Part shown: positions 36,972-44,326 of the stretch, piece after piece
Layout of the letters: the number at the start of each line of letters is the position of its first letter
How positions within the stretch are numbered: the stretch's first letter is position 1
Assembly: GCF_000526715.1 (NCBI RefSeq)
Contig: NZ_JAGP01000001.1
Span: 1,984,001-2,048,000 of the forward strand
DNA from: Hydrogenovibrio kuenenii DSM 12350
Lineage (GTDB): Bacteria; Pseudomonadota; Gammaproteobacteria; Thiomicrospirales; Thiomicrospiraceae
DNA: 64,000 bases
Reading direction: 5' to 3'
Notes under the pieces: generated by a model
What the model was told of the DNA's origin: nothing
What the model saw: only the letters and a program-made list of their open reading frames with translations
Databases searched by the model: none
Position numbers and translations under genes: made by a program

Positions 36972-38537
36972 TTACAGGCCAGGCGCTTTCCACATCGAGT
37001 CGGTCAACCCTTGTTCGACCAAGGCCAGCTGCGCTTGATAGACGGATTGCCACTGCTCCGAAATATCGGTATAACGCTGAGTATGCTTAGGGTTAGGGGT
37101 AAAAGTCTTTTCCCACTTCACAACACTATTTGCCGCTTGCTTCATCGAACCATACAATTCAACCCCTACACCAGCAGCCATCGCAGCGCCGAGTGCAGTC
37201 GCTTCCTTAACCTCTGGAATTTGAATGGTTTTACCCGTCACATCTGCAAGAATTTGTGGCCAAAGCTTCCCTTTGCTCGCGCCACCAGCAAACACCAGTT
37301 GGTCACTACACACACCCGAAAAAGCTTCAATATTTTTTAAATTGATTGCCGAAACAATGCACGCATTTTCTTGCAATGAACGAAACATAGATGCTTTATT
37401 GCACTTTTCCGCATCCAAATTTAAATTAATAAAAGATGGGCTCGCATGTATCCAATGGCCATAATTCATCACATCAGAAAAAATAGGCAAAATACCATAA
37501 GACCCAACTGGTACTTGCTGCGCCTTTTGCTCTAGTAAAGCATAAGCATCTATGCCTTTTTGTTGCGCTTGAAGCACTTCCAACTCACAAAAAACATCTC
37601 GAAACCAGCGCATCACTAGACCACTAAAAAATGTAATGCCTTCGGCCTGAGATAACCCAGGAATAACATGAGGATTCACACGGATCGACATATCTTTCGG
37701 AGTAGACGTATCGGCCTCAATATTAACCACCTGTTGCCAAAAGGTGCCGCCCAAAACCGCTGATTGTCCCAGTTCTACAACCCCTAAACCTGCTGACCCA
37801 AGCTGAACATCTCCACCACCAGTAATAACCGGTGTGCCAGGCAACAATCCAGTTTGCGCTGCTGCTTCTGCAGACACCACCCCCACTTGTGTGCCAGTTT
37901 CATAGGTATTTGGAAAAATAGATTCAGGAATACCCAATCCACTCACTAGACCGGGAAGCCAATGACGTTCATTCAATGAAAAAATACCTGCGGTGCCTGC
38001 ATTAGAGGGTTCACTCACGATATTGCCCGACAACTCGGTCAAAACCCAATCACTAATCATATTAATATGACGAACTTCGGCAAAAATTTCTGGGTGGTGT
38101 TTTTTTAACCATAACAACCTAGGCAAGGCGCCCAGTGCAAACGTTTGTCCAGAAGCCTGATAGAATTCTGTTTCTAGCTCTGGATATTCCTCAGTCAGCA
38201 TTTTGACTTCTTCAGAAGCTCTCGCATCGACATTTGCCACAGCCCATATTGGCTGGTGAGAACCGTTATAAAGCACAATCCCTTCGCGCATTGAGGTAGA
38301 AGAAACCGCTTGAATTTGACTTGGCGACACCCCCGCTTGTTGAATGGCTTTTTGAATACAACGGCAAATCAACGCCCAGTTATTGGCACAATCAAAGGAC
38401 ATTGAATTGGGTACATTTTTTTCAGCGATATGAGTCCATTCTTCTTGTCCAACGCCAAGTTGACGACCAGCAACATCAAAAATAACCGCGCGCCCAGAAC
38501 CGGTACCCGCATCTATCGCCAGTAATACTGCATCCAT
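36972..38537 (-). CDS. FGGY-family carbohydrate kinase, LsrK (autoinducer-2 kinase)-like
   Basis: A 521-residue FGGY kinase. Compared from memory with E. coli LsrK it agrees along the whole length: AIDAGTGSGRAVIFD, SSTSMREGIVLYN, ANVDARASEEV, MISDWVLTELSG, VITGGGDVQLGSAGLGVV, AVLGGTFWQQVVN, RVNPHVIPG, FAGGASKGKLWPQILADV and the C-terminal end LWKAPGL. LsrK phosphorylates the AI-2 precursor DPD. Here no lsrACDB, lsrR, lsrF or lsrG is present; instead a class II aldolase and a cupin lie directly upstream. The substrate may therefore be another keto sugar. It sits between dut and algC. Confidence 0.85.
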   Translation of the reverse strand: MDAVLLAIDAGTGSGRAVIFDVAGRQLGVGQEEWTHIAEKNVPNSMSFDCANNWALICRCIQKAIQQAGVSPSQIQAVSSTSMREGIVLYNGSHQPIWAVANVDARASEEVKMLTEEYPELETEFYQASGQTFALGALPRLLWLKKHHPEIFAEVRHINMISDWVLTELSGNIVSEPSNAGTAGIFSLNERHWLPGLVSGLGIPESIFPNTYETGTQVGVVSAEAAAQTGLLPGTPVITGGGDVQLGSAGLGVVELGQSAVLGGTFWQQVVNIEADTSTPKDMSIRVNPHVIPGLSQAEGITFFSGLVMRWFRDVFCELEVLQAQQKGIDAYALLEQKAQQVPVGSYGILPIFSDVMNYGHWIHASPSFINLNLDAEKCNKASMFRSLQENACIVSAINLKNIEAFSGVCSDQLVFAGGASKGKLWPQILADVTGKTIQIPEVKEATALGAAMAAGVGVELYGSMKQAANSVVKWEKTFTPNPKHTQRYTDISEQWQSVYQAQLALVEQGLTDSMWKAPGL

Positions 38538-38589
38538 TCAATTCTCCTTATTGCCCCTGACTTTCATGCCCATGCTAAAAAACGATTCC

Positions 38590-39789
38590 TTACCCTTTTT
38601 TAAGCTTAGCCTGCTCTAATTCCCAATATTCCATTTCAAACAATTCCGCATCCGAAAGAGGCTGATAACCGCCAAGATCTTGTGCTCTCAAAATTGCTTC
38701 AAAAGTATGATTATTAATGTCTTGGATGATTTCGACTTCTTTTTCAGACTGTCCAAATGCTACTGAACCCACCCCTTTAATGACCGCATAATGAGGTGCT
38801 GGGTTGAGGCTAATTTCATGCGTTTGAAAACGATTAAAGTAGTCTTGATACGCAGCCACATAAGCCTGAACTTCTGTTTCAATCAACTCAATGTCTCCCG
38901 ACAATACGACTGGCTTTTGCTTGGTGCGAATAATATGATCTGGCGTCAACACACTCACCTGCTCCAAAACCGCATCCGACTGTTGTGCAAACACTTGTGA
39001 AACCGTCGATTCATTGACCAATCCGATAATATTTTCTGGTGTCTCAGGCGACTTAATTTTTGCAACACAATCGGTTAGTGCCGTTAAATAATCTTCGGAA
39101 ATTTCTTGCTCAGCTTTCGCTTCAGGTAAATGCGTTTTTGCGGATAGAAAATCTTCGGCCATGCCTGCCAATTCAATCATCATGTCATAGGCTTCTTTAC
39201 CAGAGTCTGAAAACGTGAACAAGCCATGGTTCATCAGCACCATACCTTTGACCTTTGACCAATCCAATGTTTTGGTTTGTTCATAAACGGCTTTTGCCAA
39301 AATAAAACCAGGCATGACATAAGGAACAAATATCACAGAATCACCATAAAGCTCTTTCAATAAAGCTTCGCCATTAGGTGTGTTACTAATTGTTACCAAT
39401 GCATCGGCATGGGTGTGGTCGACAAACTTAAACGGAATCACTGCATGTAAAATGGCTTCTACCGAAGGGTTTGGCGCCGATGCATCAATCATTGCTTGGC
39501 GTTGTTGCGCCACCATGTCCATATCCGACATACTGTCGAGTTCCGCCATTTTCAATAGTGCGTCTAGTTTTACCGGGGCGAAGCCTGCTGGCTCAATCGT
39601 TTCCAAATCCCAGCCAGAACCTTTGACATAAAGAATATCTTCACCATTTACTTGAGATTTAACCGAGGTATTACCTCCGCCATGCATGACAAGGTTCATG
39701 TCTTTACCCAATAAACGCGAGGTATAAACGCGCATATCTAAATCACTGCTAATCGTTGCAGCCTCAGCTTCATTCCAATAATTTTGCAT
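38590..39789 (-). CDS. Class II aldolase (RhaD/FucA-like domain only)
   Basis: A 399-residue zinc-dependent aldolase/adducin-family protein. The metal site shows HTHADAL (HxH) and the later His in MNHGLFTFSD; the phosphate-binding part includes LVMHGGGNTSVKS and VKGSGWDLETIEP. It resembles the N-terminal half of the ~700-residue rhamnulose-phosphate aldolase/alcohol dehydrogenase fusions, but the dehydrogenase domain is absent. It would split a phosphorylated ketose into DHAP and an aldehyde. It lies 52 bases upstream of the LsrK-like kinase, which could supply its substrate. Confidence 0.82.
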   Translation of the reverse strand: MQNYWNEAEAATISSDLDMRVYTSRLLGKDMNLVMHGGGNTSVKSQVNGEDILYVKGSGWDLETIEPAGFAPVKLDALLKMAELDSMSDMDMVAQQRQAMIDASAPNPSVEAILHAVIPFKFVDHTHADALVTISNTPNGEALLKELYGDSVIFVPYVMPGFILAKAVYEQTKTLDWSKVKGMVLMNHGLFTFSDSGKEAYDMMIELAGMAEDFLSAKTHLPEAKAEQEISEDYLTALTDCVAKIKSPETPENIIGLVNESTVSQVFAQQSDAVLEQVSVLTPDHIIRTKQKPVVLSGDIELIETEVQAYVAAYQDYFNRFQTHEISLNPAPHYAVIKGVGSVAFGQSEKEVEIIQDINNHTFEAILRAQDLGGYQPLSDAELFEMEYWELEQAKLKKG

Positions 39790-39827
39790 TATGCTTCCTA
39801 AAAATTTTTCACTTGTTCAACAATCAA

Positions 39828-40205
39828 TCAAACATCTTCTTTAATAAATGGCTGACCAGGTTCCCAATCAATATAAACCGAGTCTTTTTCTTCCAAATGT
39901 GGCGCTTTGATAAACACCGCTTTAAATGGCGTGTCAGTTTCATTACGGAAGTAGTGCGCTTCGTTCGGGTCGCAACGCAAATAGGTGCCCGGCTTGATAA
40001 CCACACGCTCACCATCCACATACACCGCACACTCGCCTTCTAGCCCTAAAAATGATTCTTCTTGAATCACATGTTTATGGCAAGGGTGATGCTCGCCCGG
40101 CGTAATCACCACCACGCCTAAATCAACATTAGGCCCATTCGTTAGATATTTTGGGCCATGGGTTTCAAAACGATATTCATGTTCATTTTCATGAGTCATA
40201 TACAT
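39828..40205 (-). CDS. Small cupin-domain protein
   Basis: A 125-residue single-domain cupin. The metal motifs are clear: GEHHPCHKHVIQEESFLGLEGE for motif 1 (His, His, Glu) and PGTYLRCDPNEAHYFRN for motif 2. Small cupins of this type include sugar isomerases and dioxygenases. It lies between dut and the aldolase gene, all in one direction with gaps of 17 and 38 bases, so it may be the isomerase step before the kinase and aldolase. AAAGGA is upstream of the first ATG. Confidence 0.8.
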   Translation of the reverse strand: MYMTHENEHEYRFETHGPKYLTNGPNVDLGVVVITPGEHHPCHKHVIQEESFLGLEGECAVYVDGERVVIKPGTYLRCDPNEAHYFRNETDTPFKAVFIKAPHLEEKDSVYIDWEPGQPFIKEDV

Positions 40206-41074: not shown

Positions 41075-42289
41075 ATGCAGCGCATACCTCAAAACATCTG
41101 GGCTCTTGGTTGGGTCAGTTTTTTTACCGACCTCGCGACGGCCATTATCAAACCGCTTATACCTATTTATGTGGTACTCGTGCTCAATCAAGGTATGGAC
41201 AAACTTGGCTATATTCTTGCCATCACAACTTTCGTTTCCTATCTGTTACGCTGGTTCGGTGGCTGGTTAAGCGATAAATTTCAAGTCACGAAACCTTTGC
41301 TCATTGCTGGGTATGGCCTTTCTATGATAATGAAGCCCCTGATGGCTTTTGCAACCACCTGGCAAAGCGTTGCTTTTTTCAGCGCATCTGAACGACTTGG
41401 CAAAGCGATTAGAAGCGCTCCTAAAGATGTGCTAATTTCTGCATCAGCTTCTACTAATCGACAAGGACGAGCCTTCGGTGTACATAAAACATTGGATATT
41501 GCAGGAGAGACATTAGGCGGTGTTGTCGCTTTTGTATTGTTGAGTTGGTTAGGCCAATCTGCTGGGCACATTCAAATGATTTTTGCTCTCACGCTCTTTC
41601 CTGGCTTGGTCGGCTTATTGATTTTGATTTTCTTTGTCGAAGATCGTTTAAAAAATCATTCAAATACTACTCAAAAACCCACAACCGATTTCACCGCAAC
41701 TTCAGAAGCAAAAACGACTTTCGACAAAGGTTTGTGGGGTTGGTTCTGGATTTATTTTTTAACCATGTTCTTTATGATCAATGAGTCGTTCATGCTGGTA
41801 AGAGGTCACGAAGTGGGCATTGCAACCTTCTGGCTACCGCTACTCATGGTTAGCTCTGGCTTAACACAAACTCTAATCAGTTATAGTGTCGGTAAACGTT
41901 TGGATGCAAAAGGCACGCGCTTATTAATGTTAATCAGCATTGGCTCTGCTTGTCTTTCCACTTTACTACTTCTTTCAAACATCCCTTATTTGACGGTTGT
42001 TGCATTTATACTGCAAGGCGTATTTATGGTAACTGGGCTCAATGCCTTGCGTACGCGCATTGGTCAAACGCGTCACGCAAAAGGTAAAGCTTACGGCATT
42101 TTCTACCTTGGAACAGCTGTTGCCATGGCTACCGGCAATCTTGTCGTTGGGCAAATATGGGAACACCTCGGCAACCACCAAGCATTACAATTTTCCTTAA
42201 TAGGGTTGCTGCTTCTATTAAGCATTTCACTACTGAAACCCAAGCTTCTGCCCGAGAATGGAATTCATTCCAAATCAACTCATGCATAA
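41075..42289 (+). CDS. Major facilitator superfamily transporter
   Basis: A 404-residue MFS permease with about 12 helices. The loop between helices 2 and 3 reads FGGWLSDKFQVTKPLL, matching the GxxxDRxGRR-type motif, and a second similar region follows a longer central loop (about residues 190-215) rich in Thr and Lys. ALNALRTRIGQTRHAKGKAYG occurs in the second half. The substrate is unknown; this branch includes uncharacterised exporters. Confidence 0.85.
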   Translation: MQRIPQNIWALGWVSFFTDLATAIIKPLIPIYVVLVLNQGMDKLGYILAITTFVSYLLRWFGGWLSDKFQVTKPLLIAGYGLSMIMKPLMAFATTWQSVAFFSASERLGKAIRSAPKDVLISASASTNRQGRAFGVHKTLDIAGETLGGVVAFVLLSWLGQSAGHIQMIFALTLFPGLVGLLILIFFVEDRLKNHSNTTQKPTTDFTATSEAKTTFDKGLWGWFWIYFLTMFFMINESFMLVRGHEVGIATFWLPLLMVSSGLTQTLISYSVGKRLDAKGTRLLMLISIGSACLSTLLLLSNIPYLTVVAFILQGVFMVTGLNALRTRIGQTRHAKGKAYGIFYLGTAVAMATGNLVVGQIWEHLGNHQALQFSLIGLLLLLSISLLKPKLLPENGIHSKSTHA

Positions 42290-43467: not shown

Positions 43468-43642
43468 AACCTTCTCCCAATTCGTTTAAAGCAATAAAAG
43501 AGATTATCTCAATAACCTGAACGATTCGGGAAATTCTTTCAATGAAACCGTTGTTTTAAGATTCCTGCGCCGTTTTTTGATTGTTTTTTGACCTTGCTGA
43601 CGTAGAATGAAAGGCAAAAACTCACTCTGTGGATTAACCGAA

Positions 43643-44326
43643 ATGAATGACTCTTATCGCCTCAATATGGATCTTGCCGAACAAGCTTATACGCTTGGCG
43701 ATCAATTGGAATGGGTAAACAGCCCCTCTGATGGCGTCTCCCGTGTGCATCTTGAACGTGAAGCCAAGGAGTCCGGTCATACCACAAGCTTTGTGAAGTT
43801 TGCGCCAGGCTCCTCTTTTTCTCCCCATACTCACCCTTTGGGAGAAGAAATCTATGTAATGGAAGGGGTCTTTTCGGATGAAAACGGTGACTATCCCGCA
43901 GGCACCTACTTAAGAAATCCACCCGGCTCTAACCATAAACCGTTTACAAAAGAAGGCTGTACACTTTTCGTTAAACTGGATCAGTTTCAAGCCGGAGATA
44001 CAGAGCAAGTGGTCATCCGCCCAGAAGATCAGCAATGGCGTCCTGGCATTGGTAACTTAGAAGTCTTGCCATTACATCAGTTCAAAACCGAATCGACTGC
44101 ACTGGTTTTTTGGCCGGCCGGCGAAGTTTTCCAACCCCATACTCACTGGGGCGGAGAAGAAATCGTCGTCCTATCTGGAACCTTTATTGATGAAAGCGGG
44201 CACTACCCTGCTGGCAGCTGGATCAGAAACCCAGATCAAAGTCGTCATCATCCTTATGTTGAAGAAGATACATTAATATTGGTAAAGGTTGGTCACCTGA
44301 TTCACTTAAATGATGCCGTAGGGTAA
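43643..44326 (+). CDS. Duplicated ChrR-type cupin protein
   Basis: A 227-residue protein of two tandem cupin domains like the anti-sigma ChrR C-terminal domain. Each half has matching metal motifs: SPHTHPLGEEIYVMEGVFSD with YPAGTYLRNPPGSNHKPF, and QPHTHWGGEEIVVLSGTFID with YPAGSWIRNPDQSRHHPY. The N-terminal zinc-binding anti-sigma domain of ChrR is absent, so it is not expected to bind a sigma factor. It may be an enzyme or a sensor of oxidised compounds. The ATG at 43643 has GGA 9 bases upstream; 43607 is also possible. It precedes the AEC permease closely. Confidence 0.82.
   Translation: MNDSYRLNMDLAEQAYTLGDQLEWVNSPSDGVSRVHLEREAKESGHTTSFVKFAPGSSFSPHTHPLGEEIYVMEGVFSDENGDYPAGTYLRNPPGSNHKPFTKEGCTLFVKLDQFQAGDTEQVVIRPEDQQWRPGIGNLEVLPLHQFKTESTALVFWPAGEVFQPHTHWGGEEIVVLSGTFIDESGHYPAGSWIRNPDQSRHHPYVEEDTLILVKVGHLIHLNDAVG

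Follow-up and report, generated by a model that had tools for sequence, protein, structure and literature searches.

We place at about three in four the probability that a three-gene module of Hydrogenovibrio kuenenii DSM 12350 serves to break down AI-2/DPD made by the cell itself, with a class II aldolase taking the place of LsrF, a reading that is drawn from sequence comparisons. The genes lie as follows within the window, by which we mean the whole stretch of 64,000 nucleotides that was analysed:

36972..38537, minus strand: lsrK-type autoinducer-2 kinase of the FGGY family, 521 aa (NF008187, PDB 5ya0, pocket residues)
38590..39789, minus strand: metal-dependent class II aldolase, a member of the RhaD aldolase/SDR family that lacks the SDR half, 399 aa
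39828..40205, minus strand: LsrK-associated metallo-cupin, 125 aa (Cupin_2, metal-type ligands)

The pairing of a kinase with a RhaD/FucA-type aldolase and a small cupin had been described in a first-pass annotation, and the three minus-strand genes are as it described them. The gene order on that strand is dut, cupin, aldolase, kinase and then a phosphomannomutase/phosphoglucomutase gene, and the gaps of 17 nt between dut and cupin, 38 nt between cupin and aldolase and 52 nt between aldolase and kinase make it likely that the module is a tight operon read as a single transcript. A second cupin gene (window 43607-44326, plus strand), 3.4 kb off the module, encodes a double ChrR-like Cupin_7 protein of another family. 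Divergent from dut is a gene for an MFS transporter (window 41075-42289, plus strand), which adjoins dut and the module in genomes G007 and G013 as well, and an MFS gene is also found upstream of lsrK in a Deinococcus locus (L199); the MFS protein might be a transporter for the pathway, or its adjacency might be due to chance.

The kinase matches the NCBI equivalog model for AI-2 kinases (NF008187) over its full length with 849.2 bits, against a cut-off of 528, and its closest solved relative is E. coli LsrK (PDB 5ya0, E 2.8e-197), so that its earlier description as LsrK-like from end to end holds. The next-best model, xylulokinase, reaches 186 bits. The RhaD-like family of the aldolase might suggest that the kinase-aldolase pair catabolizes an external deoxy-hexose of the rhamnose or fucose type, but the kinase scores just 63 bits as a rhamnulokinase and 127 bits as a fuculokinase, no RhaA/FucI-type sugar isomerase was seen beside it, and the module co-occurs with LuxS; we regard such a role as hardly credible.

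Substrate- and ATP-site positions of E. coli LsrK were taken from two published studies (PMC8016206, PMC8028047) and mapped onto the module kinases. The window kinase has the E. coli residue at all 17, and 49 module kinases have it in all but one cell of the comparison; the ten residues predicted to form the substrate site of the E. coli enzyme (T21, S91, M92, R93, D253, V254, F276, Q278, E308 and I310; PMC8016206) are kept without change in the window kinase and in all 49. In the tree, the module kinases and the kinases of lsr operons form two separate groups (SH-aLRT 91). The two groups have in common 187 positions that are conserved to at least 90% in each; 12 others differ between them, mostly conservatively, and two of these (300 and 302) lie on either side of pocket residue I301. 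The separate grouping leaves room for a shifted substrate, and it is possible that the substrate preference of the module kinases has changed. The agreement of model, structure and pocket strongly indicates that the window kinase is a genuine LsrK, predicted to phosphorylate DPD at C5.

The means to produce DPD appear to be present in the same genome, in which a check for luxS and mtn genes found luxS (LuxS, 309 bits against a cut-off of 197) adjoining mtnN. There is a single copy of LsrK, no match to LsrF (NF006081) and, with positive controls, no protein of the ABM family (PF03992) that could represent LsrG. Similarly, LsrF exceeded its cut-off in none of the tested module genomes, the two lsr controls being positive. 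None of LsrA, LsrB, LsrC, LsrD and LsrR is encoded among the genes around the window module, and genes for LsrR, LsrB or the Lsr transporter lie beside no module of the Campylobacterota or of the same order. The observation of the first-pass annotation that the Lsr genes are missing from the module is thereby upheld; neither a second LsrK nor an LsrF was found, and the module genes co-occur in other genomes. The joint presence of LsrK and LuxS, together with the known part of LsrK in the induction of lsr (PMC8016206), might be taken to mean that LsrK forms phospho-AI-2 for signalling within the cell or for quenching, with the aldolase and cupin as accessories. We think this very unlikely, as it is opposed by the lack of LsrR, LsrB and Lsr transporter genes beside these modules and by the linkage of several of them to metK or metH (below), which points to metabolism. 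The lack of transporter and regulator genes adjoining the module suggests internal salvage or disposal and not signalling, so that salvage or detoxification, the purpose first proposed, is likely.

The aldolase contains an Aldolase_II domain (PF00596, 79.8 bits) and is the only class II aldolase of its genome. It matches only the first ~400 residues of aldolase/short-chain-dehydrogenase fusions of ~580-700 residues (PRK08324 models), and since the match breaks off near position 411 of models that are 583-705 long, the protein has no SDR half. The known rhamnulose-1-phosphate aldolase/SDR enzyme RhaDE (PRK08324) is thus homologous in its aldolase half over ~400 residues, but the module aldolase is without the SDR half and has LsrK as its partner kinase. 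The structure model (pLDDT 92) finds its best fold match in 3m4r and also matches FucA, DrdA (6btd) and RhaD. Residues E111, H125, H127 and H188 are invariant across 32 aldolase relatives, and by analogy with FucA we take them to be the catalytic Glu and the three His metal ligands. Aldolases close to LsrK mostly do not have the SDR half (it is shortened in L091 and L101), whereas those in genomes without LsrK carry it.

The strongest functional evidence for equivalence of this aldolase to LsrF is the occupation of the lsrF slot by members of its family in alphaproteobacteria, combined with their independent recruitment. On pSymB of S. meliloti, lsrACDB is followed by an SDR-less class II aldolase of 416 aa that is 38% identical to the window aldolase, and an LsrG-type ABM gene follows lsrK; the same arrangement, with the aldolase after lsrB and the ABM gene after lsrK, occurs in Thalassospira marina, Paracoccus aminophilus, strain XES5 and genome G369, from the last of which LsrF is absent. 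SDR-less aldolases lie directly after lsrB at the alphaproteobacterial loci L201:2908-4158, L202, L207, L208 and L162, in the slot that holds lsrF in the enteric and Pasteurellaceae-like control operons. The alphaproteobacterial operons thus share with the module an LsrK and an aldolase that belongs to the same family (38-41% identity) and has no SDR half, together with an LsrG-type ABM protein like that of other module genomes, and have no lsrF, but they differ from it in the presence of LsrACDB and LsrR and the absence of a cupin from the operon. In the aldolase tree, the aldolases of these operons group with aldolase/SDR fusions from alphaproteobacteria and those of the modules with fusions from other phyla, and the split between the two sides has an SH-aLRT of 100. 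These positions indicate that the family became tied to LsrK at least twice, and in each association the SDR half appears to have been lost in some or all members. The module aldolase is therefore probably a substitute for LsrF. S. meliloti has been described as luxS-negative (PMC2561040), and its lsr-operon aldolase may have been mentioned in earlier publications.

The survey of the order covered 63 genomes, with LuxS in 59 and LsrK above the cut-off in 6. In all six of the latter the aldolase gene adjoins that of the kinase, with the cupin gene nearby, which bears out the expectation that the trio is conserved. The trio is flanked by dut and the phosphomannomutase gene in G000, G007, G013 and G062 and lies next to metH in G012. 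In G003 it is split by an Eco57I-type restriction-modification gene (L069:11866-15468) between kinase and cupin; the kinase and the aldolase of G003 branch apart from their counterparts in the other order members. Such patchy occurrence of a trio that is kept together at differing sites marks it as a conserved functional module that has probably spread horizontally; and since most luxS-positive genomes of the order are without it, the module is optional. Just behind the phosphomannomutase gene of G013 lie genes for a DarT-like ADP-ribosyltransferase (Pfam DarT) and then a macro-domain-like protein (L066:12871-14628), and a ParE/antitoxin pair is located between dut and the cupin gene in L068.

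Outside the order, bacterial genomes were scanned with an alignment of the aldolases, which yielded 80 loci; ~30 of these include LsrK, mainly in Campylobacterota (Sulfurimonas, Sulfurovum, Arcobacter, Sulfurospirillum) and also in Shewanella hanedai. The commonest operon among these LsrK-bearing loci is ABM (LsrG-like)-aldolase-LsrK. In eight Sulfurimonas/Sulfurovum loci (L165, L166, L167, L168, L170, L178, L091, L120) metK lies immediately 3' of lsrK, and in several of these a radical SAM gene resembling mqnE comes next; mqnE also lies downstream of lsrK in many other Campylobacteria loci. In an evenly drawn sample of 150 Campylobacteria genomes, LsrK was present in 11 and the aldolase in exactly those 11, two of which encode kinase and aldolase on different contigs; if relatedness is ignored, the chance of identical sets of 11 genomes is 1/C(150,11) = 7e-17. 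We reject a chance neighbourhood of kinase and aldolase, since their co-occurrence holds even when they are unlinked. Among 50 aldolase-bearing genomes LuxS was found in 41 of the 43 with LsrK and in none of the 7 without it, a comparison that is confounded by phylum. The ABM protein of the Campylobacterota is related to LsrG, yet it falls below the LsrG cut-off, and among solved structures it is nearer to PA3566, for which reason we do not accept it as a proven LsrG. Within the papers covered, a literature search turned up no work on LsrK in Sulfurimonas, nor any on a class II aldolase partnered by an AI-2 kinase.

In the known Lsr route, P-DPD is isomerised and then cleaved to DHAP and an acetyl group, the latter step being the task of LsrF, a class I-fold thiolase. 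In the pathway that we propose, MtnN and LuxS, encoded elsewhere in the genome, would convert S-adenosylhomocysteine to adenine, homocysteine and DPD, and LsrK would phosphorylate DPD at C5 to P-DPD. An isomerase, which would be the LsrG-like ABM protein in most relatives and perhaps the cupin in the window's own genome, would then shift the carbonyl to give 3-hydroxy-2,4-pentanedione-5-phosphate (P-HPD; as hydrate, P-TPO). Written with the phosphate first, P-HPD has the structure CH2OP-CO-CHOH-CO-CH3, which makes it a 4-keto analogue of 5-deoxypentulose 1-phosphates, and its DHAP half can therefore be expected to chelate the aldolase metal as in RhaD, FucA and DrdA. The class II aldolase would break the bond that joins the acetyl group of P-HPD to its DHAP part; with hydration at the far carbonyl, the same base-assisted cleavage would give acetate, and no aldehyde, beside DHAP. 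On chemical grounds DHAP and acetate are probably the products, and DHAP would re-enter central (Calvin-cycle) metabolism. We know of no class II aldolase that cuts a beta-diketone. Retro-aldol cleavage of P-DPD itself was rejected, as it would need an acyl anion. The first-pass annotation had proposed DPD or a deoxy-sugar as the target, to be acted upon by cupin isomerase, kinase and aldolase in that order, with an aldehyde as product. Its DPD idea was probably right in substance, and its step order and its aldehyde probably wrong: LsrK takes DPD itself as substrate, and the known route, in the order kinase, isomerase and cleavage, predicts a product at the acetyl level beside DHAP.

Compared with the Lsr systems of E. 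coli and Salmonella (lsrACDBFG, lsrRK), the module thus shares the pocket residues of LsrK and the proposed intermediates P-DPD and P-HPD/P-TPO, and LsrG has a parallel in the LsrG-like ABM protein of module relatives. Unlike those systems, the module has no adjoining transporter or LsrR and no LsrF, but a class II aldolase and a cupin instead, and its relatives are linked to metK or metH.

The cupin protein has a Cupin_2 domain with metal-type ligands (H43, H45, E49/E50, H84) that are invariant even in the homologues adjacent to lsrK in Deinococcus and Lacticaseibacillus, and among its best Foldseek matches are sugar-phosphate isomerases of the cupin type and Mn cupins resembling TM1459. Plasmid-borne homologues are encoded next to lsrK, on its downstream side, in Deinococcus psychrotolerans (at 49% identity), in Lacticaseibacillus paracasei (35%), where the operon is of the lsr type, and in Salmonella (49%, with the adjacency taken from match coordinates alone); given such neighbourhoods, the cupin probably acts in the AI-2 pathway. 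A gene for a 'mannose-6-phosphate isomerase' has been reported to adjoin lsrK in the LsrR regulon of Salmonella and in the B. cereus group (PMC3420918); it resembles the window cupin as an isomerase-annotated neighbour of lsrK, NP_460428 being likened by annotation only, but it sits in or beside full lsr systems. We propose DPD, P-DPD or the isomer of P-DPD as its substrate; the cupin may be a P-DPD isomerase, an enzyme that opens the ring of DPD or tautomerises it, or an oxygenase that acts on the reductone form. Its assignment as the P-DPD isomerase of the window's own, ABM-less genome is tentative and somewhat less probable than the other possibilities taken together. Cupin and ABM genes occur together in three loci (L098, L119, L129), which tells against the cupin as a plain replacement for LsrG.

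Other pathways that salvage five-carbon by-products of SAM to DHAP, the Drd route and DHAP shunt (DrdK, DrdI, DrdA; MtnK, MtnA, Ald2), likewise combine a kinase, an isomerase and a class II aldolase, but the module has a kinase of the FGGY/LsrK type in place of an MtnK-like one, no MtnP, and an aldolase of the RhaD-SDR family. A variant of such a shunt might use the cupin as isomerase, the FGGY kinase to form 5-deoxyribulose-1-phosphate and the aldolase to release DHAP and acetaldehyde, the sugar being 5-deoxyribose (or methylthioribose) derived from MqnE or other radical SAM enzymes. The fold match to DrdA, the mqnE genes downstream of lsrK in many Campylobacteria, the presence of MtnN, which could make 5-deoxyribose, and the position of the module aldolase as the genome's only one of class II are all compatible with this idea. 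Known DHAP shunts use an enzyme of the MtnK or MtnP type and the isomerase MtnA (PMC6079011, PMC10986504), but MtnP is absent from the genome, as its sole PF01048 protein is MtnN; moreover, the kinase retains every LsrK pocket residue, and the same aldolase family and LsrG-type ABM proteins are found inside lsr operons. Salvage of 5-deoxyribose is therefore unlikely, and the pocket identity, the co-occurrence with LuxS and the alphaproteobacterial lsr operons that make a deoxy-sugar target much less likely leave self-made DPD/AI-2 as the most likely substrate.

Many bacteria possess luxS yet no known AI-2 receptor, and the fate of their DPD is a long-standing question (PMC2561040). We lean slightly towards the broader view that class II aldolases from the RhaD-SDR family, which lost their SDR half and were recruited on two or more occasions, hydrolytically cleave the isomer of P-DPD to DHAP and acetate, with AI-2 being a metabolite and not a signal, in an internal salvage of SAM carbon by LuxS-positive chemolithoautotrophs. 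If this is true, the class II aldolase encoded in the S. meliloti lsr operon would gain a function, and it would become clear why such operons have no lsrF. Bacteria of vent and sediment type would recycle DPD internally, often beside metK or metH, by means of a non-homologous substitute for LsrF, and carbon that is usually taken for a 'message' would simply be salvaged.
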